Part shown: positions 1,987 to 23,345 of the stretch, piece by piece
Layout: each line of letters starts with the position of its first letter
How positions within the stretch are numbered: the first letter of the stretch is position 1
Source: Asanoa hainanensis
Lineage (GTDB): Bacteria; Actinomycetota; Actinomycetes; Mycobacteriales; Micromonosporaceae
Assembly (NCBI RefSeq): GCF_900188485.1
Contig: NZ_FZPH01000021.1
Coordinates: forward strand, 12,211 to 76,210
Direction of reading: 5' to 3'
Length of the DNA: 64,000 bases
The notes under the pieces: generated by a model
Database searches by the model: none
Told to the model about the DNA's origin: nothing
What the model saw: the letters and a program-made list of their open reading frames with translations, nothing else
Program-made: the position numbers and the translations under genes

Positions 1987-2001
1987 CACAGCCTCCACAC
2001 G

Positions 2002-2823
2002 TCAGAGAATGTCACGGCGGCGCAGGACCACCGCCCCCAGCGCCAGGAAGAAGACCAGGTACGCCGCCACCACCAGCGTCGCCGGCCCGCCGCCCATCAA
2101 GGCCGAGACACCCGGCGTGCCGGTCGGCGCGCCCAGCGCGGCCACCAGCGCCCCGGCACCCGGCCCGGGCAGCCCCCGCTGCGCGCTGTCCACCCACGGC
2201 AGCAGCGGCGCCGCCAACTGCGAGATCAGGTTCTGCACGGCCAGCATCCACACGAGCCCGAGCCCGACCGCCAACGCCACGCCGCGCAGCAGGATGCCCA
2301 GCACCGCCCCGAACATCGTCCACATCGTCGCGATCAGCCAGCCGGCGCCGATGCCCCGCACGATGTCGAACGCCGACGGGAACGTCAGAGAGGCGTCCTC
2401 GGCCAGAGCGATCAACACGCTCGCCACCGTGCCCATCAGGAAGATCGCCAGCACGAAGCCGAGCGCGGCCACCGCGAGCACGCCGAACTTCCCGAACAGC
2501 ACCGTCGTGCGGGACGGCCCCTGGGTGAGCACGGTCTTCCAGGAACCCCAGCCGTACTCGCCGCCGACGAACAGCACACCCAGCACGACCAGCAGCGCAC
2601 CGAGGAAGACCGGGTAGCCGCCGAGCGTGTTGCCGACGATGTTCGCCGGCAGGGTCGCCGCCAGGCCCCGGTCGGCGGTGGCACCGGTGGTGCCGGACGT
2701 GGCACCGAGATACGGAATCACATAGGCGAAGAGCGCCCCGAGCGTCAACGCGATCCCCAGCAGCAGCCAGGTCGCCGGCCGCTTACCCAGCTTCAGCAGC
2801 TCCGCGCGAAAACTACCGACCAT
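2002..2823 (-). CDS. ABC transporter permease (ABC-2 type)
   Basis: An integral membrane permease of about 273 aa with six hydrophobic spans. The first (AtWLLLGIALTLGALFAY region) follows a short cytoplasmic N-terminus containing FRAELLKLGKRP, typical of bacitracin/lantibiotic-type ABC-2 permeases. The start at 2823 overlaps the upstream ATPase stop by 11 bp. A longer frame to 2874 exists but would begin deep inside the ATPase gene and adds no recognisable sequence. It probably pairs with the adjacent ATPase as an exporter, perhaps for peptides, antibiotics or lipids. The substrate cannot be inferred. Confidence 0.9.
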   Translation of the reverse strand: MVGSFRAELLKLGKRPATWLLLGIALTLGALFAYVIPYLGATSGTTGATADRGLAATLPANIVGNTLGGYPVFLGALLVVLGVLFVGGEYGWGSWKTVLTQGPSRTTVLFGKFGVLAVAALGFVLAIFLMGTVASVLIALAEDASLTFPSAFDIVRGIGAGWLIATMWTMFGAVLGILLRGVALAVGLGLVWMLAVQNLISQLAAPLLPWVDSAQRGLPGPGAGALVAALGAPTGTPGVSALMGGGPATLVVAAYLVFFLALGAVVLRRRDIL

Positions 2824-3703
2824 TGCTCTCGCCTCCGGTGAGCTCGAGGAAGACCTGCTCCAGATCACGTTCACGGGTACGCAGCTCGCTGACCGCGATC
2901 CCGGCCTTGACCAGCGACTCGTTGATCTCCGCAGCCCGCGAAGGCGAGACGGTCACGTCCAGCGCCCCGTCCACGACCGCCACCGCCGCGGGCCCGAGCA
3001 GCAGGCGCAGCCAGGCGACCGCGTTGTCCAGCGGCGCGGCGAGAATCCGCAGCCCGGCGCCGCTGCGGAGCTCGGCCACCGTGTTCTCCGCGACCAGCGC
3101 ACCCCGTGCGACGATGCCGACCCGGTCGCAGATCTGCTCGACCTCCCCGAGCAGGTGACTGGAGATCAACACCGTCGATCCGGCCGCCCCGAGCCGGCGG
3201 ATCAGGGTGCGCATGTCGGCCATGCCGGCCGGGTCGAGCCCGTTGGTCGGCTCGTCCAGGATCAACAGCTGCGGGTCCTTGAGCAGGGCCGCCGCGACGC
3301 CGAGCCGCTGCTTCATGCCGAGCGAGTACGTGGCGAACTTGTGCCGCGCCCGATCCGTGAGGTCGACCAGGTCGAGCACGACGTCGATCCGCCGGTCGTC
3401 GACACCGGCGTAGCGGGCCAGCACCCGCAGGTTGTCCCGCCCGCTCAGGTACGGATAGAACGCCGGCCCCTCGATCAGCGCGCCGACGCCGGAGAGATCA
3501 CCGGGCGGCCGGCCGTGCAGCAGCACCCGCCCGCTCGTCGGCCGCACCAGGCCGAGCAGCATCCGCAGGGTGGTCGTCTTCCCGGCGCCGTTGGGGCCCA
3601 GGAAGCCGTACACCTCACCGGCCCGGACCGACAGATCCAGATCCTGCACGGCGACCACCTCGCCGTACCGTTTCGTCAGCTTTTCGCACACCACCGGTTC
3701 CAT
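2813..3703 (-). CDS. ABC transporter ATP-binding protein
   Basis: A nucleotide-binding subunit of 296 aa. Walker A is GPNGAGKTT (about 36-44), the signature is YSLGMKQR (about 126-133) and Walker B is LLILDEP with the catalytic Glu near 151, followed by the switch His in SSHLLGEVEQI. The C-terminal roughly 80 aa extension is common in BcrA/CcmA-type drug and lantibiotic exporters. The ATG at 3703 was chosen because the protein then begins directly with the canonical first strand (VVCEKLTKRYG). The open frame continues upstream into glnD, but that part is shadow sequence. First gene of the ABC-kinase-regulator operon. Confidence 0.94.
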   Translation of the reverse strand: MEPVVCEKLTKRYGEVVAVQDLDLSVRAGEVYGFLGPNGAGKTTTLRMLLGLVRPTSGRVLLHGRPPGDLSGVGALIEGPAFYPYLSGRDNLRVLARYAGVDDRRIDVVLDLVDLTDRARHKFATYSLGMKQRLGVAAALLKDPQLLILDEPTNGLDPAGMADMRTLIRRLGAAGSTVLISSHLLGEVEQICDRVGIVARGALVAENTVAELRSGAGLRILAAPLDNAVAWLRLLLGPAAVAVVDGALDVTVSPSRAAEINESLVKAGIAVSELRTRERDLEQVFLELTGGESNGR

Positions 3704-3781
3704 GCCCACAGGCTTCCCGCAGAACCGGCAAAGAGCGTCAGTGCGCGAGCGGCATCCCGCGTACGCCCGGCAGCGTAGAAA

Positions 3782-3797
3782 GGCGCCCGAAAGCGCC
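3782..3797 (-). terminator. Hairpin just after glnD
   Basis: A GGCGC / GCGCC stem with a 6-nt loop, read on the minus strand and followed by TTTCT, begins 3 bp after the glnD stop. It is short but correctly placed to end the amtB-glnB-glnD transcript. The 97-bp gap before the ABC ATPase holds nothing else I recognise apart from room for that operon's promoter. Confidence 0.45.
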
Positions 3798-3800
3798 GCC

Positions 3801-6068
3801 TCAGGACGCAGCGGCAGCCAGCACAGCCGCTTCGACGGCGGCCTCACCCGCCCCGATGCCGACCAGGTAGAAGGCGTCCACCACGTCGCCACCCAGGGTG
3901 GAGATCCGCGCGGCCCGCACCGATGCCCCGGCCTCGTCGAGCGCGCTGGCCACCCGATAGAGCAGGGCCGGCGAGTCAGCGGCCCGCAGCTCGAGCACGA
4001 CCGCGTCGGTCGCCGCGTCCCGGTGCCAGACCACCCGCGGCGGCGCCCCGGAACCGGCCGACCGGCCACCCCGACCCCGCAGCCGCTGCGTCACCGACAC
4101 GTCCCCGGCCACCGCCCGCCGCAGGTCGTTGGCCAACGCGATCGGATCCGGCGAAGTGCCATAGCGCGGAGACGTGACGAACTCGACCAGCGCCCGATCC
4201 TCCACCGTGGACACGTCGGCCCCCCGCACGTCGAGCCGGTGCAGCGCGAGGCACCCGGCCACTGCCGCCAGCAACCCGCGCCGGTCGGCCGCGGCCACCG
4301 CGACCCGGTCACCGTCGAGGTGTACGGCCGGCAGCGGCCCCTCCACCAACGCCGGGTCGGGGGTCGGCAGCGCGGGCAGCACGCCGGTGTCCAACGCAGT
4401 GTGGGTTAGGCGCACGAGCGTGTCGATCAGCCGGCCCTTCCAGTCGGACCAGGCGGCCGGCCCGGTGGCCCGCGCGTCGGCCCGGGCCAGCCCGTGCAGC
4501 AGGTCCAATGTGGTCGCGTCGCCGACGGCCGAAGCGACTGCGGCGATCGTCTTCGGGTCGGAGAGGTCCCGGCGGGTGGCCACCTCGGGCAGCAGCAGGT
4601 GCAGCCGGACCAGCTTCTCGATCAGTGCGACGTCGGCCGCCGGCAGCCCGATCCGGGCGGCCACGGCGGCCGCGACCGGCGCGCCGGCGGTGCTGTGGTC
4701 GCCGGGCAGGCCCTTGCCGACGTCGTGCAGGAACGCGGCCAGCAGCAGCAGGTCGGGCCGGTCGACCTCGCGGGTGAACCCGGTCGCCTCCGCCGCCGCC
4801 TGCACCAGGTGGCGGTCGAGGGTGAACCGGTGCACCGGGTTGTGTTGGGGCAGGCTGCGCATCCGGGCCCACTCCGGCAGCCAGCCGTCGACGAGCCCGT
4901 AGCGGTCGCAGGTCTCCCAGGCCGGCACCAACCCGGCACCGGAGCCCAGCAGGGTGATCAGCGCGGCAAGCGCGGAAGCCGGCCAGGGCGACGGCAACGG
5001 CGGGCAGTACGCGGCCAGCCACTCGCAGGTCGCCCGGGAGATCGGCAGGCGGGTCGTGGCGGCCGCGGCGGCGACCCGCAACGACAGCGACGGGTCCGGC
5101 CGGGCCCCGATCGCGGTGCGGGCCAGCACGAGCTCGCCGTCCTGCTCGACCACGTCGCGGGCGACCGGGCGGCGCAGCGGCTTGCCGTCACCGCCCCGCC
5201 GGCGGATCACCCGGACCCGGTCGGCGGCCCGCCAGGCGTCGTCGAGGGCGTTGGCGACCGTACGCGCGTCACTGGCCACCCGCCGCAGCAGCGCGTCGCC
5301 GTCGTCGAGGCCGAGCAACCCCGCCACCGCGAAGCGCTCCTGTGCCACGAGCCGGTCGACCCGCCGACCGACCGCGATGTGCAGCGCGTCGCGGGTGTCC
5401 AGCAGCCGCAGGTGCGCGGCCCGGACGGCCGGCCGCAGCGCGTCGGTGACACCGGAGCGCGCGATGCCGCGCAGCACACCGACATCGCGCAGCCCGCCCG
5501 CCGCCTCTTTGAGATCACCCTCCAGCAGGAAAGCCAGCTCGCCGTGCGCCTCCCAGCGGGCCGTCGTCACGGAACGCAGCGCGGGAAGCTGCCGGATAGC
5601 GGTGCGCCGCCACTGGTCCGCGGCCGCGGCGGCGAGCGAAGCGGTCAGGTCGGCGTCGCCGGCGATGTGCCGGGCGTCGAGCAGCCCGAGTGCGACCTTC
5701 ACGTCGTCGTGCGCGACGGACAGCGCCTCGGGCAGGGTCCGCACGGAGTGGTCGAGGCCGAGCCTGGCGTCCCAGATCGGATACCAGAGCGACGCGGCCA
5801 GCTCGTCCATCCCGGGCACGCCCGCGTGCAGCAGCACCAGGTCGAGGTCGGCGTGCGGGGCGCACTCGCGCCGCCCCAGACCGCCGACGGCCACCAGCGC
5901 GACGCCGGCAACCGAGGCGGGAAACAACTCCCGGAGCCACGCGTCCAACGCGGACGCGCGGGCGTCCCGGGCAGCGGCCCCGATGCCGTCAGGAACGGGA
6001 GGAACAACAGGAGCGACCGAGGGACCGACTCCAGCCGAAGCTGGCGCCGATCCCCCGGTCGTCGTCAT
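3801..6068 (-). CDS. glnD: PII uridylyl/adenylyltransferase
   Basis: A bifunctional nucleotidyltransferase and nucleotidyl-removing enzyme that modifies the PII protein encoded just upstream. In actinobacteria it adenylylates Tyr51 of GlnK. The 755 aa contain the nucleotidyltransferase motif GGLGRRE (62-68) with metal-binding D74 and D76, the LKEAAGGLRD element (about 186-195), an HD domain with H448-D449 (FLHDVGKG), and two C-terminal ACT domains (roughly 575-645 and 685-755). The Pro/Ala-rich first 30 residues are not conserved, so the exact start is less certain than the body. The start lies 5 bp after the glnB stop, making it the last gene of the amtB-glnB-glnD operon. Confidence 0.95.
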   Translation of the reverse strand: MTTTGGSAPASAGVGPSVAPVVPPVPDGIGAAARDARASALDAWLRELFPASVAGVALVAVGGLGRRECAPHADLDLVLLHAGVPGMDELAASLWYPIWDARLGLDHSVRTLPEALSVAHDDVKVALGLLDARHIAGDADLTASLAAAAADQWRRTAIRQLPALRSVTTARWEAHGELAFLLEGDLKEAAGGLRDVGVLRGIARSGVTDALRPAVRAAHLRLLDTRDALHIAVGRRVDRLVAQERFAVAGLLGLDDGDALLRRVASDARTVANALDDAWRAADRVRVIRRRGGDGKPLRRPVARDVVEQDGELVLARTAIGARPDPSLSLRVAAAAATTRLPISRATCEWLAAYCPPLPSPWPASALAALITLLGSGAGLVPAWETCDRYGLVDGWLPEWARMRSLPQHNPVHRFTLDRHLVQAAAEATGFTREVDRPDLLLLAAFLHDVGKGLPGDHSTAGAPVAAAVAARIGLPAADVALIEKLVRLHLLLPEVATRRDLSDPKTIAAVASAVGDATTLDLLHGLARADARATGPAAWSDWKGRLIDTLVRLTHTALDTGVLPALPTPDPALVEGPLPAVHLDGDRVAVAAADRRGLLAAVAGCLALHRLDVRGADVSTVEDRALVEFVTSPRYGTSPDPIALANDLRRAVAGDVSVTQRLRGRGGRSAGSGAPPRVVWHRDAATDAVVLELRAADSPALLYRVASALDEAGASVRAARISTLGGDVVDAFYLVGIGAGEAAVEAAVLAAAAS

Positions 6069-6073
6069 GCCAC

Positions 6074-7812
<1,739 letters not shown>

Positions 7813-7923
7813 GCTGCCTCCTCTCGGTAGGTTTCCTCCCTCCGGCAGGCAGAGCAGCGTCGCCCGACAGCCGGTTCGGGCTGAAGCCTCCCGGGCCGCT
7901 GTTTCGCGCAAGGTCGCGAGTCG

Positions 7924-7960
7924 GTTACCGCATCGTGACGGGTTGTTTCGTACGTGTGAA
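7924..7960 (-). promoter_or_regulatory. Candidate GlnR box upstream of amtB
   Basis: Read on the minus strand, the sequence is TTCAC-6-GAAAC-5-GTCAC-6-GTAAC. The known actinobacterial GlnR operator consists of alternating gTnAC and GnAAC pentamers with 6-nt spacers. All four pentamers fit or nearly fit; only the middle spacer is one base short. The position, about 110-150 bp before the amtB start, suits activation of an amtB-glnB-glnD operon under nitrogen limitation. No glnR gene is in the window. Confidence 0.6.
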
Positions 7961-7971
7961 GAAACCCGCGA

Positions 7972-8760
7972 TCAACGCAGTGCGTATTCCAAGGTGTGGC
8001 GTTCGTAGTCGAGCAGGCGGAGATCACGCATCGGGCGCCGAAGGTGACCCTTGTGCACGATCCGGACGAACGCCGGGTCGCCCGCGGCCGCCATCCGGCG
8101 GATGCCCTCCACGTGGTCGACGATCCGCTTGCGGATCGTGCGCACCAGCCGGTGCCGGTCGCGGGGGATCAGCCCGTACGCGTCGGCGAACATCCGCAGG
8201 CGCTGCGGCCGGTTGGGCCGCTTCCAGCCGAGCGTGTAGGAGTCACGGTCGGAGAACAGCGGCACCCAGGTCCAGGCCGCGTAGGCGACGTCGTAGATCC
8301 GCGCGCCGGGCGAGGCCAGGTCGAAGTCGATCAAGGCCAGAGTGCCGTCCGGACGCCAGATCACGTTGTGCGGCGCCGCGTCGTGGTGACAGATCACCTC
8401 GGTGTCCGGCGGCGGCGGCCCGAACGAGCGCCAGACCGCGTTGCGCTCCGGCGCGAAGCCGTACTGCGCGTCGTGGAACATCCGCAACATCGTCGCGACC
8501 GTGATCAGCGCTTCGTCGGTGACCCAGTGCGGGGCCAGCGGGTACTCGCCGCACTCCCCCTCGAGGTAGGAGAGCACCTCGCGGTTGCGCTCGTCCATGC
8601 CGAGCACGCGTGGTGAGCCGGTAAAACCGACATATTCGAGGTGACGCAGCAACGCGTGCACGGACGGGGTCCACGGACCGGCGTTACGCCGGACGGTGTC
8701 GCCGACGCGCACCACGGTGCTGACGTTTCCCCCGCGCAGGGGAACTTCGTGCTGCGTCAC
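7972..8760 (-). CDS. Aminoglycoside-phosphotransferase-family protein
   Basis: A small-molecule kinase-fold protein of about 262 aa (APH/choline kinase superfamily). The catalytic loop reads CHHDAAPHNVI (Brenner-type HxDxxxxN) and the metal-binding motif reads ALIDFDLAS. The GTG at 8760 was chosen for the GAGGA site 6 bp upstream. The longer frame to 8874 lacks any family sequence. The substrate is unknown: members phosphorylate aminoglycosides, macrolides, choline, homoserine or sugars, and the neighbours (ftsY, amtB) do not help. It is not evidence for antibiotic resistance. Confidence 0.85.
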   Translation of the reverse strand: MTQHEVPLRGGNVSTVVRVGDTVRRNAGPWTPSVHALLRHLEYVGFTGSPRVLGMDERNREVLSYLEGECGEYPLAPHWVTDEALITVATMLRMFHDAQYGFAPERNAVWRSFGPPPPDTEVICHHDAAPHNVIWRPDGTLALIDFDLASPGARIYDVAYAAWTWVPLFSDRDSYTLGWKRPNRPQRLRMFADAYGLIPRDRHRLVRTIRKRIVDHVEGIRRMAAAGDPAFVRIVHKGHLRRPMRDLRLLDYERHTLEYALR

Positions 8761-8810
8761 CGCGTTCCTCGCTCCGCTCGTCACTGGTGACTGAGTGCTG
8801 AGCCGGCTGT

Positions 8811-8831
8811 TGGGCTCGCGAGGCGAGCCCA
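8811..8831 (-). terminator. Hairpin downstream of ftsY
   Basis: A perfect inverted repeat TGGGCTCGC / GCGAGCCCA with a 3-nt loop lies 50 bp after the ftsY stop and upstream of the phosphotransferase. It has no T-tract, as is usual for actinobacterial terminators. Confidence 0.5.
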
Positions 8832-8880
8832 CAAACGGTCTCCCGAGCCCGGAGGCCTGCCAGTCGTAAGACACCCGAGG

Positions 8881-10023
8881 TTACGCGTCCGTGCCAACAA
8901 GGGCGTCGACGAAGGCGGCCGGCTCGAAGGGTGCGAGGTCGTCCGGGCCCTCGCCGAGACCGACCAGCTTGACCGGGATGCCGAGCTTGCGCTGCACGGC
9001 GATGACGATACCGCCCTTGGCGGTGCCATCGAGCTTGGTGAGCACGACACCGGTCACGTCGACCACCTCGGTGAACACCCGGGCCTGCTCGAGCCCGTTC
9101 TGACCCGTCGTGGCGTCGAGCACGAGCAGCGTCTCGTCGACCGGGCCGTGCTTCTCGACCACCCGCTTGACCTTGCTGAGCTCGTCCATCAGGCCGACCT
9201 TGTTCTGCAGGCGGCCCGCGGTGTCGACCAGCACGGTGTCGACGCCCGTGTCGACGCCCTTCTTCACCGCGTCGAACGCGACGCTGGCGGGGTCGGCACC
9301 CTCGGGGCCGCGGACCACCTCGGCGCCCACGCGGCCGGCCCAGGTGGCCAGCTGCTCGGCGGCGGCGGCGCGGAACGTGTCGGCGGCACCCAGCAACACG
9401 GAGTGCCCGTCGGCGATCAGCACCCGTGCGATCTTGCCGCATGTGGTGGTCTTTCCGGAACCGTTGACGCCCACCACCATCAATACGGACGGCTTGCCGC
9501 CGACCTTGAGCGAGCGGTCCAGCGTGGGGTCGAGCGCCTCGACGAGCTCGGCGGTGAGCAGGGCGCGCAGCTCCGTCGGGGTGCGGGTGCCGAGCACCTT
9601 GACCCGCTCCCGGAGCCGGCCGACGATCTCGCCGGTCGCCTCGACGCCGACGTCCGCGCCGATCAGGCTGTCTTCGATCTCTTCCCAGGCGTCGTCGTCG
9701 AGCCGGTCCCGGGAGAGCACCGAGAGCAGGCTCTTGCCGAACACGTTCTGCGAGCGGGAGAGCCGCCCGCGCAGCCGGACCAGCCGCCCGGCGGTGGGCG
9801 CCGGGGTCTCGATCGTGGGAGGGGCGGGCGCTTCGGGCGCCTCGGCCGGCCGTTCCGGTGCCAGAATGCCGACACCACCGGCCTCCTCGGCGGACTCCTC
9901 GGGTGCTCCGGTCGGGCGTGGCGGGGCCGGCGGCACCCGGCGGCGCAGCCGGGGCACGAGCAGGCCGACCCCGGCCAGCAGCAGCACGCCGGCCAGAACG
10001 ATTCCGAGGATCACGTATTCCAT
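8881..10023 (-). CDS. ftsY: Signal recognition particle receptor FtsY
   Basis: The SRP receptor GTPase that docks ribosome-nascent chain complexes at the membrane. The ATG at 10023 gives 380 aa beginning with a single N-terminal membrane anchor (residues 3-25), then a Pro/Ala/Glu-rich linker (30-78), the helical N domain and the G domain. G1 is GVNGSGKTTT (185-194); the DTAGR and TKLDGTAKGG motifs follow. The sequence upstream of 10023 looks non-coding. In most actinobacteria ftsY directly follows smc. Here the two are 3.7 kb apart, with five genes between them on both strands. Confidence 0.96.
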   Translation of the reverse strand: MEYVILGIVLAGVLLLAGVGLLVPRLRRRVPPAPPRPTGAPEESAEEAGGVGILAPERPAEAPEAPAPPTIETPAPTAGRLVRLRGRLSRSQNVFGKSLLSVLSRDRLDDDAWEEIEDSLIGADVGVEATGEIVGRLRERVKVLGTRTPTELRALLTAELVEALDPTLDRSLKVGGKPSVLMVVGVNGSGKTTTCGKIARVLIADGHSVLLGAADTFRAAAAEQLATWAGRVGAEVVRGPEGADPASVAFDAVKKGVDTGVDTVLVDTAGRLQNKVGLMDELSKVKRVVEKHGPVDETLLVLDATTGQNGLEQARVFTEVVDVTGVVLTKLDGTAKGGIVIAVQRKLGIPVKLVGLGEGPDDLAPFEPAAFVDALVGTDA

Positions 10024-13132: not shown

Positions 13133-13753
13133 CTATGCCAGATTGAGTGCCGCTCGGATGTAGGGAAGGTCGGCCGGCCCGGTCCAGCGATAGGCAGCCA
13201 GCCCCGCGGCGCGCGCCCCCAGCACGAAGCGCTCACTGTCGTCGACGAACAACACGTTCCGCGGCGGGGTCCGCAACGCCAGGCACGCCGCGCCGAAGTA
13301 CTCCGGAGCCGGCTTCGGGATCCGCAGCTCCGACGAGTTGATCACCGCGTCGAACTCATCGACCAGGCCCAACGTACGCAGGTCGGCCGGAAGCAGATCC
13401 GTGGCGTTCGTGGCCAGCCCGACCTTGATGCCGGCGGCCCGCGCCTCCCGGATCAGCGCCAGCAGCCCCGGCTCGACGGTGCCCCGGTACTGCTCCCACT
13501 CCTTGACCGCGGCCCGCGCCCGGTCCGGGTCGCCCGTCTGGTCGGCGAGCTCCGCCGCGATCACGTCGGCCCACTCGTCGTGGGTGATCTCGCCGATGAT
13601 CGCCGGCATCAGCCGCGACCAGTCCAGCGCGGCCATATAGAGCGCGCCGGGCTTGAGGTCGTGCGCCGCCTCGATCCCGTGGATCACGGCCGGGTCCCAG
13701 CGGCGCAGGGTGCCGTCCAGGTCGACCAGCAGCGCGGTGGCCTTCGGGCGCAT
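13133..13753 (-). CDS. HAD-family hydrolase
   Basis: A haloacid dehalogenase-like phosphohydrolase of 206 aa. Motif I is LLVDLDGTL, with the nucleophile Asp near residue 11. A helical cap domain (about 20-90) follows, then motif II in GLATNAT and the motif IV aspartates in NVLFVDDSERF. It shares one base with the smc stop (TGATG), so it is translated with or just after SMC. The substrate is unknown; such proteins dephosphorylate sugars, nucleotides or glycolate derivatives. Confidence 0.88.
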   Translation of the reverse strand: MRPKATALLVDLDGTLRRWDPAVIHGIEAAHDLKPGALYMAALDWSRLMPAIIGEITHDEWADVIAAELADQTGDPDRARAAVKEWEQYRGTVEPGLLALIREARAAGIKVGLATNATDLLPADLRTLGLVDEFDAVINSSELRIPKPAPEYFGAACLALRTPPRNVLFVDDSERFVLGARAAGLAAYRWTGPADLPYIRAALNLA

Positions 13754-16700
13754 CAGTCCTCCTCGCCGCCGAGTCGCTGGCTGATCACTTCTGTGACGCC
13801 GTTGCGCATGGTCACGCCGTACAGGGCGTCGGCGACCTCCATCGTGCGCTTCTGGTGGGTGATGATGATCAGCTGGCTCTTCTCGCGGAGCTGGGCCATC
13901 AGCGTGATCAGCCGGCCGAGGTTGACGTCGTCCAGCGCCGCCTCGACCTCGTCCATGATGTAGAACGGGCTGGGGCGGGCCCGGAAGATCGCGACCAGCA
14001 TGGCCACCGCGGTCAGTGAACGCTCACCGCCCGAGAGCAGCGAGAGCCGCTTGATCTTCTTGCCCGGCGGGCGGGCCTCGACCTCGACGCCCGTGGTCAG
14101 CATGTCCTCGGGGTCGGTGAGCACCAGGCGACCCTCGCCGCCGGGGAACAGCACCGTGAAGACCTGCTCGAACTCGCGGGCCGTGTCGTGGTACGCGTTC
14201 GTGAACACCTCGAGGATCCGGTCGTCCACGTCCTTGACCACGGTGAGCAGGTCCCGCCGGGTGTTCTTGAGGTCCTCGAGCTGGTCGGAGAGGAACTTGA
14301 ACCGCTCCTCCAGCGCCGCGAACTCCTCCAGCGCCAGCGGGTTGACCTTGCCCAACAGGGCCAGCTCGCGTTCCGCCTTCGCGGCCCGCTTCTCCTGCGT
14401 CGGCCGGTCGTAGGGCAGCGCATCGGGCTCTGGCTCACCCGCCGCGGCGGCCGCGGCCAGAGCAACCTGCGTCGGGGGTACGGGCTGCGCCGGGCCGTAT
14501 TCGGCGACCAGCGTCTCGACGTCGAGCGAGAAGTCCTCCGCGGCCTTGATCTCGAGCTGCTCGATCCGCATCCGCTGCTCGGCCCGGGCCACCTCGTCGC
14601 GGTGCACCGCGCTGGTCAGCCGCTCCAGGTCGCTGGCGAGCCGCTTGGCCGCCGCGCGCACCTCCTGGAACTCGGCCTCGCGGGCGGACCGGGCGGACGC
14701 GACGGCGTCGCGGGTCTCCTCGGCGGCGGCCAGCGAGACCGCGACCCGGGCCAGCGCCTCGCGGGCGCCGATCTCCACGGCACGGGCGATGCCGGCACCA
14801 CGGACGCGGGCGGCCTTGCGCGCGGCCGTGCGCTCGCGGGCGGCGCGCTCGGCGGCGGCCTGGCGGGCCAGCGACTCGGCGCGGCCGGCGATCGACGCGA
14901 CCCGCTCCTCGGCGGTGCGGACCGACAGCCGCACCTCCATCTCGTTCTGCCGCGCCTGCGGCACCATCGCGGCGAGCTGGTCGCGCTCCTCGGTCGACGG
15001 CTCCTCGTCGATCGGGGTGGTCTCGGCCAGCTCGAGCCGGGTCTCCAGCTCGGCCAGCGCGGTCAGGTCCCGGTCGCGGGCCTCCTGCGCCCGGGCCCGG
15101 GAAGCGCCGAGGCGCTCGGTCTCCGCGGCGGCGGACCGGGCGGCGGCGCCGAGCTCGGCGAGCCGGCGGGCGGCGGCGTTGCGCTGCCCCTCGGCGGCCC
15201 GCTTCTCGCGCTCGGTGACCTGCACGGCCTCCTTGCGCCCGGCGACCGCGGCCCGCGCAGTGGCGAGCTGGGTGCGGAGCTGCTCGATCTGCTCCTCGGC
15301 GGTGGACCGGTTGGTCGCCGCCTCGTCGACCGCCGCCTGCAGCTCGATGAAGCTCTGTGCCTTGGCCGAGCCACCCGCGGCGGCGTACGCGCCGACCACG
15401 TCGCCGTCCGGCGTGACCGCGCGCAGCTGCGGGTTGTCGGCCACCGCGCGGGTGGCCAGCTCCAGGCTCCCGGTCAGGATCACGTCGCGCAGTGCCCAGT
15501 GCACGGCCGGCCGGATCCGCTCGTCGCAGCGGACGACGTCCGGCGCCCACCGCGCACCGTCGGGCAGCGCCGGGCGCAGCGTGTCCGGGGAACCGATCAT
15601 GCCGGGGCCGGCCGGCGTGCCGACCAGCAGCGACGCCCGCCCGGCGTCCTGGATCTTGAGGTAGCGCATCGCCTCGGCGGCCTCGTCCACGCCGGCGACC
15701 GCGACCGCGTCGGCGAGCGCGCCGAGCGCGGCGGCCAGCGCCGCCTCGTGGCCCGGCTCGACGGTCAGCATGCCGGCCAGGCTGCCGAGCAGGCCGGGTA
15801 CCTGGTCGGCCCGGCTCAGCAGCGCGCCGGCACCGTCCTTGCGCCGCAGGCCGAGTGACAGCGCTTCTTCGCGGGCCTTCCAGGTCGCCGCGTCCTTCTC
15901 GGCGATCCGCTCGCGGTTGGTCAGCTCGCGGACCTCGGCCGCGGCGGCCTCGTGCGCGGCCACGGCCTCGTCGTGCCGGGCGTCCAGGTCGGCGTCGGCC
16001 AGGTCGGCCTCCGACGACTCCGCCGCGACCGCGTCGACCTCGGCCTGCGCCCGCTGGGCCCGGGCCTGCGCGTCGGCGTGCGCCGTGGCCAGGCGTTCGA
16101 TCTCCTCGGAGCCGCTGCTGCTGCGGGCGCGGGCGGCGTTGACCTGGCCGGTGAGCTTGGCGAGCCCCTCGCGGCGGTCGGCGATCGCCTTCGCGGCCGC
16201 GCGCAGCGCCTGCTCGGCCGCGGCGAGCTGGCGCTCCAGCGCCTGCCGGGACTCGACCGCCTCGGCGAGGTGGGTCTGGTCGTCCTTGAGGGCGGCGCGG
16301 AGCGTGTCCTCCTGTGCCCTTATGCGCTCGGACTCAGCGGCCAGCTCGTCGGGGTCGCGGCCGGGGCGCTCGTCGTCGGGGGTGGCGCTCAGGTGGCGCA
16401 GCCGCTCGCTGGCCAGCTGCTCGGTGGACCGGAAGCGCTCCTGCAGCGCGGACAGCTTGTACCAGGCGTCCTGCGCGGCCGCGAGCAGCGGCGCGTCCTC
16501 GGCCAGGGCGGCCTCGAGCTGGGTCAGCCGGCGCTGCGCCTGCTCGTGCTCGTCCTCCACATATTCCCGCCGCTCGCGCAGGGCCGCCTCGTCGGCGATC
16601 TCCTTGTCGAGGGTGGTGCGCAGCGTGAACAGGTCGTCGGCGAGCAGCCGGAGCCGGGCGTCACGCAGGTCGGACTGGATGCCGGCCGCGCGCCGGGCCA

Positions 16701-17331
16701 CCTCGGCCTGCCGGCCCAGCGGCTTGAGCTGGCGGCGCAGCTCGGCGGTCAGGTCCGTGAGCCGGTTGAGGTTGGTCTGCATCGCGTCGAGCTTCCGCAG
16801 CGCCTTTTCCTTGCGCTTGCGGTGCTTGAGGACGCCGGCCGCCTCCTCGATGAAGGCCCGGCGGTCCTCCGGCTTGGCGTGCAGCACGGCGTCGAGCTGG
16901 CCCTGGCCGACGATCACGTGCATCTCGCGGCCGATGCCGGAGTCGCTCAGCAGCTCCTGGATGTCGAGCAGCCGGCACGAGTTGCCGTTGATCTCGTACT
17001 CGCTCTCGCCGGAGCGGAACATCCGGCGGGTGATCGACACCTCGGTGTAGTCGATCGGCAGTGCGCCGTCCTGGTTGTCGATCGTCAGGGTGACCTCGGC
17101 GCGACCCAGCGGCGCCCGGCCGGCGGTGCCGGCGAAGATCACGTCTTCCATCTTGCCGCCGCGGAGGGCCTTGGCGCCCTGCTCGCCCAGCACCCAGGAG
17201 ATCGCGTCGACCACATTGGACTTGCCGGAGCCGTTGGGCCCCACGACGCAGGTGATGCCCGGCTCCAGCCGCAACGTCGTCGCGGAGGCGAAGGACTTGA
17301 AGCCCTTCACGGTCAAGCTCTTGAGATGCAC
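13753..17331 (-). CDS. smc: Chromosome segregation protein SMC
   Basis: A 1192-aa condensin ATPase that organises and helps segregate the chromosome. The N-terminal head has Walker A GPNGSGKS (31-38). A long coiled coil with Ala/Arg/Glu heptads leads to the hinge (roughly 500-660, around GLLGSLAGMLTVEPG). A second coiled coil returns to the C-terminal head with signature LSGGERSL and Walker B FYIMDEVEAALDD. Length and order match the family. ScpA and ScpB are not in the window. The HAD gene follows with a 1-bp overlap. Confidence 0.97.
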   Translation of the reverse strand: MHLKSLTVKGFKSFASATTLRLEPGITCVVGPNGSGKSNVVDAISWVLGEQGAKALRGGKMEDVIFAGTAGRAPLGRAEVTLTIDNQDGALPIDYTEVSITRRMFRSGESEYEINGNSCRLLDIQELLSDSGIGREMHVIVGQGQLDAVLHAKPEDRRAFIEEAAGVLKHRKRKEKALRKLDAMQTNLNRLTDLTAELRRQLKPLGRQAEVARRAAGIQSDLRDARLRLLADDLFTLRTTLDKEIADEAALRERREYVEDEHEQAQRRLTQLEAALAEDAPLLAAAQDAWYKLSALQERFRSTEQLASERLRHLSATPDDERPGRDPDELAAESERIRAQEDTLRAALKDDQTHLAEAVESRQALERQLAAAEQALRAAAKAIADRREGLAKLTGQVNAARARSSSGSEEIERLATAHADAQARAQRAQAEVDAVAAESSEADLADADLDARHDEAVAAHEAAAAEVRELTNRERIAEKDAATWKAREEALSLGLRRKDGAGALLSRADQVPGLLGSLAGMLTVEPGHEAALAAALGALADAVAVAGVDEAAEAMRYLKIQDAGRASLLVGTPAGPGMIGSPDTLRPALPDGARWAPDVVRCDERIRPAVHWALRDVILTGSLELATRAVADNPQLRAVTPDGDVVGAYAAAGGSAKAQSFIELQAAVDEAATNRSTAEEQIEQLRTQLATARAAVAGRKEAVQVTEREKRAAEGQRNAAARRLAELGAAARSAAAETERLGASRARAQEARDRDLTALAELETRLELAETTPIDEEPSTEERDQLAAMVPQARQNEMEVRLSVRTAEERVASIAGRAESLARQAAAERAARERTAARKAARVRGAGIARAVEIGAREALARVAVSLAAAEETRDAVASARSAREAEFQEVRAAAKRLASDLERLTSAVHRDEVARAEQRMRIEQLEIKAAEDFSLDVETLVAEYGPAQPVPPTQVALAAAAAAGEPEPDALPYDRPTQEKRAAKAERELALLGKVNPLALEEFAALEERFKFLSDQLEDLKNTRRDLLTVVKDVDDRILEVFTNAYHDTAREFEQVFTVLFPGGEGRLVLTDPEDMLTTGVEVEARPPGKKIKRLSLLSGGERSLTAVAMLVAIFRARPSPFYIMDEVEAALDDVNLGRLITLMAQLREKSQLIIITHQKRTMEVADALYGVTMRNGVTEVISQRLGGEED

Positions 17332-18049: not shown

Positions 18050-18850
18050 GTGCAGGACACCGAGCACGCCGGCACAGGAAAGCACCGAAACGCACGGCGT
18101 ACATTCGGGCCTCTCGGCCTCGCCTTTGTCGTCATGATCATTCTAGGCGGTTTAGGCGCCGGAGCGGCACTGTTGCCATCAAGTTTTATCGGCACCTCCA
18201 AGAGCTCCACCAAAGGCGCCATCGCCGGCCCGGGCGACAGCGCCTTCGACGCCGACACCAGCGGTGGCGAGGACGGCCCGGACAGCGACGCCTACGGCGA
18301 CGAAGCGCTGTCCGAGCCGTCGCCGGCGCCGGTCGAGGTCATCCCTACCGCTCCCCCGTCGCCGAAGCCGACGGTGCGCAAGACCACCGCGCCGAAGAAG
18401 ACCACCTCGTCGCCGAGCAAGCGGTCGACGACCAGCGGGAACACCGTCTCGGTCTCCGGCGCCGGCGGGTCCGAGCAGGCCAAGGTGGTGGCGGAGACCA
18501 ACCGGCAGCGCGCGCTGAACGGCTGCGGCGCTGTCACCGTCAACGCCAAGCTGACCGAGGCCGCCCAGCTGCACAGCATCGACCAGGCCGACCACAACAC
18601 GATGTCGCACGACGGCAGCGACGGCAGCAGCCCGTGGGACCGGTCCCAGGCCGCCGGCTACGACAACGCGATCGGCGAGAACGTGGCGATGGGCTACCGC
18701 GACGCCGCCGCGGTCATGGACGGCTGGATGAACAGCCCCGGCCACCGGGCCAACATCCTCAACTGCAGCGCGAAGGCGATCGGCGTGGGCCTGGCCAAGG
18801 CGGCCGACGGCAGTCCGTATTGGACGCAGATGTTCGGATCAGTGAAGTAG
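18050..18850 (+). CDS. Secreted or membrane-anchored CAP (SCP/PR1) protein
   Basis: A 266-aa extracytoplasmic protein. A basic N-terminus is followed by a hydrophobic segment (about residues 20-45, GLAFVVMIILGGLGAG), acting as a signal or anchor. A Pro/Thr/Lys/Asp-rich low-complexity linker (about 50-130) leads to the C-terminal CAP domain (about 142-266). Family landmarks are NRQRALNGCG, LHSIDQADHNTMSHDG, IGENVAMG and WMNSPGHRANIL, with both His/Glu cavity residues and a Cys pair. The GTG start has AGGAGG six bases upstream. Bacterial CAP proteins have few defined functions. The next gene starts 97 bp later on the same strand. Confidence 0.9.
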   Translation: MQDTEHAGTGKHRNARRTFGPLGLAFVVMIILGGLGAGAALLPSSFIGTSKSSTKGAIAGPGDSAFDADTSGGEDGPDSDAYGDEALSEPSPAPVEVIPTAPPSPKPTVRKTTAPKKTTSSPSKRSTTSGNTVSVSGAGGSEQAKVVAETNRQRALNGCGAVTVNAKLTEAAQLHSIDQADHNTMSHDGSDGSSPWDRSQAAGYDNAIGENVAMGYRDAAAVMDGWMNSPGHRANILNCSAKAIGVGLAKAADGSPYWTQMFGSVK

Positions 18851-18947: not shown

Positions 18948-20372
18948 GTGCGCGTAGCACTGATCAACGAAGGCACCTACCCGTACGCGCCCGGAGGCGT
19001 CGGCACCTGGTGCCACCAGATCCTCAACGGGCTCGACGGGCACGAGTTCCACGTCGTCGCCCTCACCGGCCACGGTGGCCCGCGCGAGCCCGCCTACCCG
19101 GTGCCGCCCTCCGTCACCGCGGTCGAGACGTACCCGGTGTGGGACCGACCGATCATGGTCTCCGGCGGGATCGCCCGGCACCGCCGCCGGCGCGCCGCGT
19201 CCGCCGCGGCCGTGCTGCTCTGCCGCGGACTGCTCGGCGACGACCCGCACAGCGCCGGCATGTTCGCCGACGGGCTGCGCCGGCTGACCGAGCTGTCCGG
19301 CGACGGCACGCACCCGCTGTTCGGCACGGAACTGCCCGAGGTGCTGCTCGACGCCTGGCAGGCCTCCGCCGGACCCGCCGCCGGCCGCCCGCCGCTGCCC
19401 CGGCTGTCGCTGCGCGACGCCCGGTCCGCCGCGGTGCTGCTCGAGCACGCCGTCCGGCCGCTGGCCTGCCGCACTCCCCGGGTGGATCTCTGCCACCCGG
19501 CCGCCGCCGGCCTGCCGGTGCTGGTCGCGCTGGCCGCCAAGTGGCGCGCCGGCACGCCGTACCTGCTCACCGAACACGGCGTCTACCTGCGCGAACGCTA
19601 TCTGGAGTACGGCGCGGGGATGCCGCTCGCGGTCAAGACGGTGGTGCTGCGGTTCTACCGGGCACTGGCCCGGCTCGGCTACGACGAGGCCGCGTTGGTC
19701 GCCTCCGTCAGCCGCTTCAACCAGCGGTGGGAGCTGCGGCTCGGCGCCCATCCGGCCAAGGTCGTGGTGGTGCCCAACGGGGTCGAGCCGCTGCGCTACC
19801 CGCCGCTGGCCACCGAGCCGACCGTGCCGACGGTCACCTGGGTCGGCCGGATCGACCCGCTCAAGGACCTGCACACGCTGATCCGGGCGATGCGCACCAT
19901 CCGCGACGCGGAGCCGCTGGCCCGGTTGCGGCTCGCCGGCCCGGTGCCCGAGACCGGCCGGGAGTACGCGGCGAGCTGCCTCGCGCTGATCGAACGGCTG
20001 GGCCTGCGGGCGGCGGTCGACCTCTCCGGCCCGGTGACGTGCAGCCGGCAGGCGTACGCGGACGGTCACCTGGTCGCGCTGTCGAGCATCTCCGAGGGCC
20101 TGCCGTACACGATCATCGAGGCGATGATGTGCGGCCGGCCGACGGTCAGCACCGACGTCGGAGGGGTGTCCGAGGTGGTCGGCGGCACCGGGCTGATCGT
20201 GCCGCCCGGCGACCCGGTCGCGTTCGGCCAGGCCTGCCTGGAGCTGCTCGGCGACGGCGAGCGGCGACGCAAGCTCGGCGCGCAGGGCCGGGACCGGGCC
20301 CTCACGCATTTCACCGTCGACCGGATGCTGGCCGCCTACCGCCAGCTCTACACGGACGTAAGAGCGGCATGA
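18948..20372 (+). CDS. PelF-like glycosyltransferase (GT4, DUF3492)
   Basis: A cytoplasmic GT-B glycosyltransferase of 474 aa. The N-terminal half starts MRVALINEGTYPYAPGGVGTW, the signature of the DUF3492 domain found in PelF, the glycosyltransferase of Pel exopolysaccharide synthesis. The C-terminal half is a GT4 donor-binding domain with VVPNGVE, VTWVGRIDPLKDL and the catalytic-site motif SEGLPYTIIEAMMCGRP. The GTG start has GGAG 7 bp upstream. The stop overlaps the next gene by 4 bp (ATGA). The sugar donor in characterised PelF is UDP-linked; here it is not known. It starts a three-gene coupled cassette. Confidence 0.88.
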   Translation: MRVALINEGTYPYAPGGVGTWCHQILNGLDGHEFHVVALTGHGGPREPAYPVPPSVTAVETYPVWDRPIMVSGGIARHRRRRAASAAAVLLCRGLLGDDPHSAGMFADGLRRLTELSGDGTHPLFGTELPEVLLDAWQASAGPAAGRPPLPRLSLRDARSAAVLLEHAVRPLACRTPRVDLCHPAAAGLPVLVALAAKWRAGTPYLLTEHGVYLRERYLEYGAGMPLAVKTVVLRFYRALARLGYDEAALVASVSRFNQRWELRLGAHPAKVVVVPNGVEPLRYPPLATEPTVPTVTWVGRIDPLKDLHTLIRAMRTIRDAEPLARLRLAGPVPETGREYAASCLALIERLGLRAAVDLSGPVTCSRQAYADGHLVALSSISEGLPYTIIEAMMCGRPTVSTDVGGVSEVVGGTGLIVPPGDPVAFGQACLELLGDGERRRKLGAQGRDRALTHFTVDRMLAAYRQLYTDVRAA

Positions 20373-21805
20373 GCGCACCGACGATCGGGCCGGTAGGCAG
20401 CGTCCCAGCGCCAAAAGGCCCCCCGCCGAGGTCGATCGCCGATCTGGCCGAGCGGTTCGCCGGCCGCGTGCTGGTGGTCGACGTCGAGGAGCTCGTCGCG
20501 ACCATCGAGGCGGCCGGCATCAGCGACAGGCAGGCGCAGGTGAGGTACGGCGTGCCGACGGTGTTCGCGCTCGGCGAGGCGGTGCTGGCCCAGCTCTGGG
20601 CCCAGCGCGGCCACCCGGGTGCGCGACCGCGCCGGCCCGCGATGGCCCCGTTCGCCCGCGCCGCGCTGGCCCGCGCGGCCCTGTTCCTGACACCGGCCCT
20701 GGCCGCCAACGCCGGCGGCGCGACGCTCGACCGGGTCGGCTGGCCGCTGCTCGCGATCACGCTGGTGCTCGGCTGGTCCGGCGGTCAGGCGCTGGCCTGC
20801 GCGGGGTACGCCCGCGCCGGGCACGGTGCGATCGGTTCGGCGCTGCGCCGGCTCGGGCTCGGCCTGCTGGTCGGCACCGCCGGGTGCGGCGCCCTGGTCG
20901 CCCTCGGTCCGAGCTGGCTGGTCGGTGCGCGCGCGGTCGCGTACGCCGTCTGCGGTGTCGGGCTCGTCGCCTTCGCCACCGTCGCCGCCGCCCTGGTCGG
21001 GGACCGGGTCGGCGCGGTGCTGCGCTGGTCGGTGCCCGTCTCGCTGGTCAGCCTCGCGCTGCTGGCCGGGCTGCTGCCGGAGCGCTACACGTGGGTGCTC
21101 GGCGCCGCGGTCGGGCTCGCCGCCGCACGCGCCTTCGCACCGGCGCTGCGCCGCGACCCACCCGGCGCCCGCATGCCGGTGCGCACCCCGTACGGCGCGG
21201 TGGCCGCGTACCTGCTGATCGGTGCCGGGCAGGCGGGCGCGTTCTTGCTGGTATCCCGGCTGGAGGCGGGTGCCGGGGCGGCCGCGGTCCCGCTGCTGCT
21301 GGCCGTGCCGTTGATCGAGCTGTTCGTCGGCTGGCACGCCGCCGGCGCCGCGGCCGGCCTGGACCTCTACGACGACCTCGCCACCTACCGCCGGCACCTG
21401 CGGGCGCTGGGCGTGGTCACCCTCGCCGCGCTGGTGCCGCCGCTGGCGATCGGAGCCGCGCTCGTGTTCGCGGCCTTCCGGCTGCCCTACGAGCTGTCCC
21501 GCCACCCCGACGCGCGCACGCTGGTGCTGTCGGCGGCGGCCGGCCTGCTGCTGGCCGGCGTCTGGGCGGCGACGCTGCTGCTGGCGACGCGCGGTCGGCT
21601 GGTGCTGGCCGCGCTGCTGGCGCTGGCGCCCGTCGCCTTCGCGGTGGTGCCGGTAGCGGGTTGGCTGGTGGCCGTGCCGACGGGCAGCGCCGAGTCGTTG
21701 ATCCAGGTGTTGTTGCCCGCGACGGTGGCCGGCCTGGCCGCGACCTCGGTGCTCGGCCTCGCCGCCACCGCACACACCGTCTTCCATTCCGGGAGCTACC
21801 GATGA
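20369..21805 (+). CDS. Multi-span membrane protein, PelG-like
   Basis: A 478-aa membrane protein. A soluble N-terminal segment of about 75 aa (ADLAERFAGRVLVVDVEELV and DRQAQVRYGVPTVFAL regions) is followed by about 12 strongly hydrophobic spans from residue 95 to the end. Position and topology match PelG, the MOP-superfamily flippase-like partner of PelF, but sequence motifs alone do not prove the family. It overlaps both neighbours by 4 bp (ATGA), so the three genes are translationally coupled. It probably moves or helps secrete the glycan made by the upstream enzyme. Alternatively it is an actinobacteria-specific transporter of unknown function. Confidence 0.75.
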   Translation: MSAPTIGPVGSVPAPKGPPPRSIADLAERFAGRVLVVDVEELVATIEAAGISDRQAQVRYGVPTVFALGEAVLAQLWAQRGHPGARPRRPAMAPFARAALARAALFLTPALAANAGGATLDRVGWPLLAITLVLGWSGGQALACAGYARAGHGAIGSALRRLGLGLLVGTAGCGALVALGPSWLVGARAVAYAVCGVGLVAFATVAAALVGDRVGAVLRWSVPVSLVSLALLAGLLPERYTWVLGAAVGLAAARAFAPALRRDPPGARMPVRTPYGAVAAYLLIGAGQAGAFLLVSRLEAGAGAAAVPLLLAVPLIELFVGWHAAGAAAGLDLYDDLATYRRHLRALGVVTLAALVPPLAIGAALVFAAFRLPYELSRHPDARTLVLSAAAGLLLAGVWAATLLLATRGRLVLAALLALAPVAFAVVPVAGWLVAVPTGSAESLIQVLLPATVAGLAATSVLGLAATAHTVFHSGSYR

Positions 21806-22497
21806 TCGAGCTGCCTCGCCGGGTGCCCGGCGCCTCCACCGCCGGGCCGGCGCCGACCAGGTTGGTGCCGCTCTACGTGCATCCGCACGAGGACCCGCAG
21901 GCCTGGGACCCGGACGCGCTGGCCGGCACCACCGTGATCGTCAACGTGCAGGACGGGCCGGGTGCCGCGCCCGACGAGTCGTACCTGTCGGCGACCGCCC
22001 GGCTCGCGCGGGACGGCGTGCCGATGCTCGGCTACGTCGACCTGGGCTACTCGGCCCGGCCGATCGCCGACATCCTCGACGACGTCGACCGCTGGACCGC
22101 GTACCCGATGTCGGGTGTCTTCCTCGACCAGTGCCCGACCGGCGCGTTCGGCATGGGCCCGGTGGCGTTGGCGGTGCGCGTCGCCCGCCGGGCCGGCCTG
22201 TTCGCGACGGTGCTCAACCCCGGCACGCCGCCCGAGCCGGTCTACCGGGACCTCGGCGTGCCGATCTGCGTGTACGAAGGCGCCTGGGACGACTACCAGG
22301 AGTGGACGGGCGAGGGCGCGCTGCCCGGCGACGGCCACCTGATCCACAGCGTGCCGCCGTGGCAGCTCGAACACGCCCGCCGCGTGATGGCCTGGCGCGG
22401 TGCCGGCTTCGGCCTGGTCACCGACCGCTGGCCGCCGAACCCGTGGCAGGGCCTGCCGTCGGACTCACCGCGCCCGCTGGCCGTGGTGCCCGGCTAA
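21802..22497 (+). CDS. Spherulin-4/GH135-like glycosidase
   Basis: A 231-aa protein of the spherulation-specific family 4 (TIM-barrel) group. Characteristic segments are [12 protein letters not shown] near the N-terminus, [28 protein letters not shown] and ATVLNPGT, which carry the barrel's acidic residues. Characterised relatives (fungal Sph3, GH135) cleave alpha-1,4-GalNAc polymers, and the PelA hydrolase domain is functionally similar. No signal peptide is visible, which is odd for an enzyme of this type; it may act inside or be exported by another route. It is the third coupled gene of the Pel-like cassette and converges on mutM with a 4-bp overlap. Confidence 0.85.
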
Positions 22498-23345
22498 GCC
22501 GCGATACGGGGTCGCGGCTGGCACTTCGGGCACGAGAACGACGAGCGGTTCATGAACGCCTCGCGGCGCATCGGCGCGCCGCAGCGGTTGCAGGGCAGGC
22601 CCTCCCGGCCGTACGCGTTCAGGCCCCGCTCGAAGTAGCCGCTCTCGCCGTTGACGTCGACGTAGAGCGCGTCGAAGCTGGTGCCGCCCGCGCGGATCGC
22701 CTCTTCGAGCACGTCGCGGACGTGTCCGAGCAGGCGCAGGGCGGCGGGCCGGGTCAGCCGGTCGGTGGGCCGGGCACCGTGCAGGCGCGCCCGCCACAGC
22801 GCCTCGTCGGCGTAGATGTTGCCGACCCCGGAGATCAGCGTCTGGTCGAGCAGCGCGCGCTTCACCTCGGTGCGGCGGCGGCGCAGGCCGGCGGCGAAAC
22901 CCTCGTCGGAGAACTCCGGGTCGATCGGGTCCCGGGCGATGTGGGCGATCTCCGCGGGCAGGTCAGCGCCGCCCGAGGAGACCGACAGGCCGCCGAACGT
23001 GCGCTGGTCGACGAAGCGCAGCTCGGGATCGCCGTCGTCGAAGCGGAAGCGGATCCGCAGGTGGGTCTCGTCCGGGGTGCTGGCCGGCTGGAGCAGCATC
23101 TGGCCGGACATGCCGAGGTGGCCGACGATCGCGTCGCCGCTGTCGAGCGGGAGCCACAGGTATTTGCCCCGGCGGCGGACGTCGAGGACCCGGCGGCCGA
23201 CGAGCTGGCCGGCGAAGTCGAGCGGGCCGGGCAGGTGGCGGCGGACCGAGCGCGGGTGGTGCACCTCGACCGACGCGATCCGCCGGTCGGCGACGTGCTT
23301 CTCCAGACCGCTGCGGACGGTCTCGACCTCGGGTAGCTCGGGCAC
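22494..23345 (-). CDS. mutM: Formamidopyrimidine-DNA glycosylase
   Basis: A base-excision repair enzyme (Fpg) removing 8-oxoguanine and formamidopyrimidines, with AP lyase activity. The 283 aa start PELPEVETV, giving the catalytic Pro (nucleophile) and Glu after Met removal, followed by the beta-hairpin Lys near 61 (GKYLWLPL). The helix-two-turn-helix contains [12 protein letters not shown]. The C-terminal zinc finger has CNRCG and CPKC. The start is 9 bp after the rnc stop, in the DUF177-rpmF-plsX-rnc-mutM operon. Confidence 0.96.

Follow-up and report, generated by a model that had tools for sequence, protein, structure and literature searches.

The window analysed here is a 64,000-nucleotide stretch of the Asanoa hainanensis genome (contig NZ_FZPH01000021.1, positions 12,211 to 76,210), and our subject is a three-gene cassette within it that lies between smc and mutM and encodes a glycosyltransferase (GT), a multi-span membrane protein (MP) and a Spherulin-4/GH135-like protein (SPH) (Table 1). 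A preliminary description, made from the letters of the window, had read these genes as a compact, minimal Pel exopolysaccharide cassette. Its three open reading frames and two ATGA overlaps are confirmed, as is the position between smc and mutM, although a CAP/SCP-domain gene in the same interval went unmentioned. The Pel assignment holds only in part, and we instead place this recurrent, unnamed actinomycete gene set elsewhere in the Pel/galactosaminogalactan world, next to operons with an Agd3-like deacetylase.

Table 1. Features of the smc-mutM interval and its flanks, in window positions
Feature	Positions	Strand	Basis
GT: DUF3492 and GT4 glycosyltransferase, 474 aa, GTG start	18948..20372	+	ORF, PF11997, PF13692, NCBIfam PelF
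MP: 478-aa membrane protein, N-terminal helical domain followed by 12 long helices of MOP fold (predicted)	20369..21805	+	
SPH: 231-aa Spherulin-4/GH135-like TIM barrel (predicted) without visible signal peptide	21802..22497	+	
GT-MP stop/start overlap, ATGA	20369..20372	+	
MP-SPH stop/start overlap, ATGA	21802..21805	+	
CAP/SCP-domain gene, context of the interval, probably outside the cassette	18050..18850	+	PF00188, E 3.6e-22
smc, flank	13753..17331	-	identified by sequence and synteny, without a family search
mutM, flank	22494..23345	-	identified by sequence and synteny, without a family search

The three-gene arrangement is real and not a product of chance. A search with one MP protein found matches in 47 of 150 sampled Micromonosporaceae genomes, and of the best 30 of these 47 loci (window included) all 30 have SPH after MP on the same strand and 29 have GT before it; in the thirtieth, from genome G136 (L082), GT lies 1.4 kb further upstream. 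The 4-nucleotide MP/SPH overlap recurs in 24 of 32 loci (by a start-codon rule, and counting the window and two genomes represented twice). Purifying selection is seen on each of the three genes across five Asanoa comparisons, with dN/dS of 0.11-0.18 for GT, 0.29-0.42 for MP and 0.15-0.30 for SPH; GT is 97% and SPH 95% identical to the proteins of A. ishikariensis DSM 44718.

GT matches DUF3492 (PF11997, E 2.8e-43) and GT4 (PF13692, E 3.4e-28), with an EX7E motif at residue 383 (EGLPYTIIE). It is, as had been proposed, related to PelF, though remotely: its score with the NCBIfam PelF model (NF038011) is 181.7 bits (cut-off 100), whereas three PelFs with an adjacent PelG score 507, 688 and 832 bits. 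Four cassette GTs fall at 145-183 bits, and a fifth (L054) had no match to the model at E 1e-40. In a tree of 46 rows, including 21 chosen smc-locus loci and the window, six PelFs with PelG are separated from the rest by a 100/100 branch, the 22 smc-locus GTs group as a single clade (100/99), and next to them as sister group (98/97) stands the GT of Agd3-type operons in the same family. The tree was rooted on the PelFs because there was no other independent outgroup, and it carried warnings on long branches and odd composition, mostly among the PelFs. GT therefore groups outside PelF and with a different conserved partner, an outcome that the preliminary description had itself named as telling against a Pel assignment. 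As a caution for annotation, the NCBI name "PelF" also takes in a separate clade whose membrane partner is of another kind.

That partner was found by neither Pfam nor NCBIfam models. Its structure as predicted by AlphaFold2 (AF2; pLDDT 84.8, pTM 0.75) begins with a helical N-terminal part, continues with 12 long helices and shows the 12-helix MOP fold of the MOP transporter superfamily, so that the roughly 12-span protein described in the PelG position stands as to topology. Sequence similarity to PelG was not detectable: PF16933 has no match in MP, nor anywhere in the window genome, and hhalign found no profile-profile similarity between MP and four PelGs (E 0.28 and 0.11). An unrelated transporter structurally unlike PelG, the other outcome named beforehand as adverse, is not shown, because MP keeps a MOP fold; the structure predictions covered MP and not PelG. 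The N-terminal helical domain (residues about 20-82 of the window MP, P0002, roughly AxxLExxGIxDRxAxxxYGxxxVFALA) is present in most MPs, and at L050:4507-4716 and L051:3518-3694 it is the sole part of MP found by tblastn.

The cassette has its closest kin in operons of Actinomycetes that include an Agd3-like (CE18) deacetylase, a better parent system than Pel. These share with it a GT of the same family and a multi-span MP, as seen in the GT tree, the SPH tree (where the Agd3 grouping has 98/69) and the common MP N-terminal domain. The SPH tree holds 52 of 61 rows, having left out L082, L084, L086, L087, L088, L091, L123, L126 and an Sph3 fragment. The window genome carries such an operon separately, on contig C18 (L097, G000:C18:432000-450000), comprising Agd3-like, GT, MP, nucleotidyltransferase, SDR and GH114 genes, and its Agd3-like product passes the cut-off of 27.6 bits for both PF25116 (42.6) and PF25115 (36.9). 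No Agd3/CE18 deacetylase occurs within the window cassette, and PF12138 found no second SPH in the genome. Both the smc cassette and a full Agd3-like/SPH operon are present in G028, G129 and G136 (L132-L134). We count the parent kind of operon as known because Bamford et al. 2020 (PMC7229062) already sketches galactosaminogalactan-type operons of Actinobacteria. A literature search, mostly of open-access papers, returned no description of a deacetylase-less smc-mutM form or of a leaderless SPH. What looks new is the leaderless SPH missing one Sph3 acid, and the occurrence of SPH alone at smc-mutM intervals.

The 47 MP genomes divide into 29 with the cassette at the smc-mutM locus (nearly always with SPH), 16 with Agd3-type operons, G022, whose MP belongs to an Agd3 operon that also has genes for sugar nucleotides, and G085, whose weak, broken match (E 8.7e-4, one stop) was excluded from cassette counts. 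Both smc and mutM are on the fetched stretch in 26 of the 29, and one of them in the other three; G052 was read through L002, the same A. ishikariensis contig stretch. A survey with one protein undercounts, a hydrophobic frame at the MP place having been missed in G023 (L116), and PF12138 misses some SPHs that tblastn sees (G006, G031; in the latter, at L065, the SPH match is weak, E 4.9e-4). Seven of eight Agd3-type loci viewed have the order GalE, Agd3-like, GT, MP, SPH (L055, L056, L058, L063, L064, L098, L099), and the eighth (L062) has the same order with GalE undetected; the remaining eight of the 16 genomes are known as an Agd3-like gene beside MP. At two smc loci (L082, L084) 1.3-1.4 kb separate GT and MP.

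Further afield, a draw of 246 Actinomycetota genomes contained PF12138 matches in seven (window genome included) and PF16933 above cut-off in two. Genomes of the f4/g48 group (probably Streptomyces) and a Streptomyces californicus plasmid hold versions of the cassette, several with SDR and nucleotidyltransferase genes, the plasmid version also with GH114. A Kocuria rosea plasmid (L122) has an Agd3-like gene, GT, MP, SPH and GH114; at positions 666-9734 of NZ_CP126484.1 this cassette is flanked by two copies of transposase WP_284563886.1 on opposite strands, so that the whole of it may be mobile. A plasmid search with MP as query gave no match. At the smc locus itself, the CAP gene was considered as a fourth member and rejected because it stands there regardless of the cassette: it turned up in 18 of the 20 stretches upstream of smc that lack an MP similar to that of the window, and in 20 of the 29 with MP, the nine without detection including one cut by a contig end.

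The third protein was correctly described as Spherulin-4/GH135-like (PF12138, E 3.3e-25; predicted TIM barrel). SPH has the Spherulin4 domain, the Sph3 fold and the catalytic D and E (D109, E159), the nucleophile D109 being D in all 44 cassette SPHs. It lacks the third acid, which adjoins the nucleophile (Sph3 E167) and which we take to matter for activity: the position is Q110 in the window, Q in 17, R in 26 and H in one of the 44, and among 10 orphan SPHs Q in six and R, H, N and A once each, while E is found there in L043, L044, L124, L125 and Sph3. Cassette SPHs have D80 (44/44) and W162 (43/44), where Sph3 has A and Y. A leader was sought by a hydropathy scan and not a signal-peptide predictor; by this measure L043 and L044 reach 1.72 and 2.43, while 24 of 24 MP-linked loci in a first set are at or below 1.15, as are 25 further cassette loci and the 10 orphans except L121 (1.48), L134 (1.22) and orphan L110 (1.61), where the scan includes an upstream frame or inner start. 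Together, the absence of a signal peptide by hydropathy and the loss of one of three Sph3 acids suggest that cassette SPH is probably cytoplasmic, unlike PelA or Sph3, and the proposed equivalence to the PelA hydrolase domain is not supported, since PelA and fungal Sph3 are extracytoplasmic. Another, stronger class of Spherulin-4 occurs outside cassettes in frames of ~620-840 aa (E about 1e-40; G087:C2:133206, G100:C5:142873, G132:C1:7806245 and others), and a Kitasatospora plasmid (L123, NZ_CP108485.1, 6974-7720) has a Spherulin-4 gene among phage capsid and tail genes; Spherulin-4 genes are reported in soil viruses (PMC8269230).

SPH also occurs without a synthase. An smc search was given 25 genomes and matched 24 (not G002), from which 20 upstream stretches lacking an MP match were obtained (not G007, G011, G019, G055), eight from genomes with an Agd3-type cassette elsewhere (G022 included) and 12 from genomes in which the MP search found nothing. 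In 10 of the 20 stretches SPH is the only one of the three cassette genes (L101, L105, L106, L108, L109, L110, L111, L113, L114, L115); one holds GT, SPH and a divergent MP-like frame (L116), one GT alone (L100), and eight none of the three. Seven of the 10 SPH-only genomes carry an Agd3-type cassette; in the remaining three (G008, G016 and G027) nothing matches DUF3492, a model that can miss divergent GTs (that of G118 scores E 1e-17). Linked and orphan smc SPHs form one clade (100/99), on which the best tree has three changes of state, one of them forced by strongly supported branches. Orphans of related genomes have pairwise dN/dS of 0.06-0.24 (0.18 for G016 against G132 and G087), and orphan L101 has lost the nucleophile (D to H).

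We favour, with a probability of about 0.6, a reading in which the cassette is a minimal branch, lacking a deacetylase, of the Actinomycete galactosaminogalactan, or Agd3-type, operon, that is, a GalNAc-type polymer synthase and exporter with a cytosolic chain-trimming glycosidase. It would have settled between smc and mutM in an ancestor shared by some of the Micromonosporaceae. GT4 enzymes work in the cytosol on nucleotide sugars, and the DUF3492-GT4 enzyme would there polymerise a UDP-hexosamine or hexose, probably GalNAc with or without Gal. The MOP-fold MP would carry the growing or finished chain across the membrane, in the role of PelG or Gtb3, and the leaderless SPH, on the cytosolic side, would most likely trim or release nascent or stalled chains, or set their length. 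Fungal Sph3 is membrane-bound and essential for polymer production, and a proposal cited in PMC12054363 has it cutting the polymer that leaves Gtb3 and so preventing clogging; cytosolic SPH could do at polymer entry what Sph3 is proposed to do at that exit. Since the cassette has no deacetylase of its own, the product would be expected to be neutral and fully N-acetylated and, as one polysaccharide left fully acetylated is described in PMC4817252 as shed and non-adherent, poorly adherent, unless the Agd3-like enzyme of contig C18 acts in trans. A literature search on galactosamine in Micromonosporaceae walls produced nothing useful. The cassette suggests that the Spherulin-4 partner, membrane-bound in fungi, is cytoplasmic in bacterial cassettes, and an apparently intracellular polymer-cutting enzyme raises the question of its job there. 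We put forward, tentatively and as rather doubtful, that SPH founds a GH135-like subfamily of the cytoplasm, marked by D80, W162 and a D-[Q/R] active site, a polymer-cutting fold moved to the inner membrane face to edit nascent polysaccharide before export, with a role of its own that in several lineages outlived the synthase. Why polymer synthases carry their own hydrolases could be tested in this three-gene system, with natural SPH-only strains as controls.

Several observations weigh against the favoured reading. The best Foldseek match of MP is 1.2e-3, none being at E 0.001 or better; the top matches are MATE proteins, not flippases, some MFS chains match too, and the MOP fold is common to drug and lipid-II transporters. 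The Agd3 domains of the Micromonosporaceae operons are mostly below the Pfam cut-off (E 0.09 to 2e-8, with L064 passing one); six Agd3-like proteins do align over their length, the first being 30-58% identical to the others, and both cut-offs are passed by L043 and by the C18 copy of Asanoa. A gap of 0.3-1.4 kb separates GT from MP in several relatives, and SPH was not detected beside GT-MP in G021 (L066) or G043 (L061). The E159 position is E in 32 of 44 cassette SPHs (otherwise D in nine, A in two, S in one), so some of them may be inactive, and the survival of lone SPH in half of the MP-less intervals fits poorly with a role limited to the cassette polymer. A rival that we think unlikely gives SPH a cytosolic function of its own and takes its association with GT-MP to be mostly a matter of history. 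The 10 of 20 MP-less intervals with SPH alone, three of them from genomes with no DUF3492 match, the low orphan dN/dS and the three changes of state on the best tree would all suit it; yet strongly supported branches force one change alone, the MP/SPH overlap is widely kept (some of those loci being duplicates), plasmids and other families also have SPH linked to GT-MP, one orphan has no nucleophile, and PF11997 can miss divergent GTs.

Somewhat less unlikely, though still well short of the favoured reading, is a Wzx-like scheme in which a lipid-linked oligosaccharide or cell-wall glycan, not a synthase-type polymer, is assembled by GT and flipped by MP, with SPH acting in the cytosol to edit the sugar on its lipid. 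Glycans, glycolipids or drugs are the cargo of MOP proteins. Against this scheme, near relatives adjoin Agd3-like or GH114 polymer-modifying enzymes of extracellular type, and none of the three cassette genes encodes an initiating glycosyl-phosphate transferase, a check made on the cassette and not on the whole genome. The Pel reading, a minimal system of PelF, an exporter like PelG and a hydrolase outside the cytoplasm in place of PelA, has become improbable: Pel membership was considered and set aside because GT stands apart from PelG-partnered PelFs and MP has no sequence similarity to PelG, to which the leaderless SPH adds. PelD is not visible either, as the preliminary description had said. 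Its GGDEF domain (PF16963) appears in none of six Asanoa genomes and in both of two Pel plasmids, although a divergent form could escape this model, since the PelG-bearing genomes G160 and G190 are also negative; PelE, PelB and PelC are not among the cassette genes, no search having been aimed at them. Hardest to credit is a decaying relic, for although many relatives lack GT, MP or both in the interval, the frames are intact and dN/dS in the five Asanoa comparisons is well below 1 for all three genes.

Compared with known systems, the cassette resembles Pel (pelABCDEFG, or pelDEA(DA)FG in Gram-positives; PMC7112168) in its PelF-related GT and multi-span membrane partner, and differs in having no PelD GGDEF domain, PelG sequence, secreted hydrolase or deacetylase, and in a GT that falls apart from PelG-partnered PelFs. 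With the fungal galactosaminogalactan cluster uge3-sph3-ega3-agd3-gtb3 (PMC12054363 and PMC4817252) it shares an Sph3-fold protein and a GT presumed to polymerise GalNAc/Gal; there, however, Gtb3 is a putative transmembrane GT, whereas the cassette encodes GT and transporter as separate genes, and Sph3 is membrane-bound and thought to be active at the polymer exit, whereas cassette SPHs have no visible leader and differ from GH135 Sph3 in Q, R or H at the E167 position and in D80 and W162. The Agd3-type operons (PMC7229062) have an Agd3-like CE18 deacetylase and commonly GH114, neither of which is in the smc-mutM cassette, but they combine the same cytosolic GT and multi-span membrane protein, sometimes with Spherulin-4, and in L056, L064, L060 and L122 kin of the window GT, MP and SPH occur together with Agd3-like genes.

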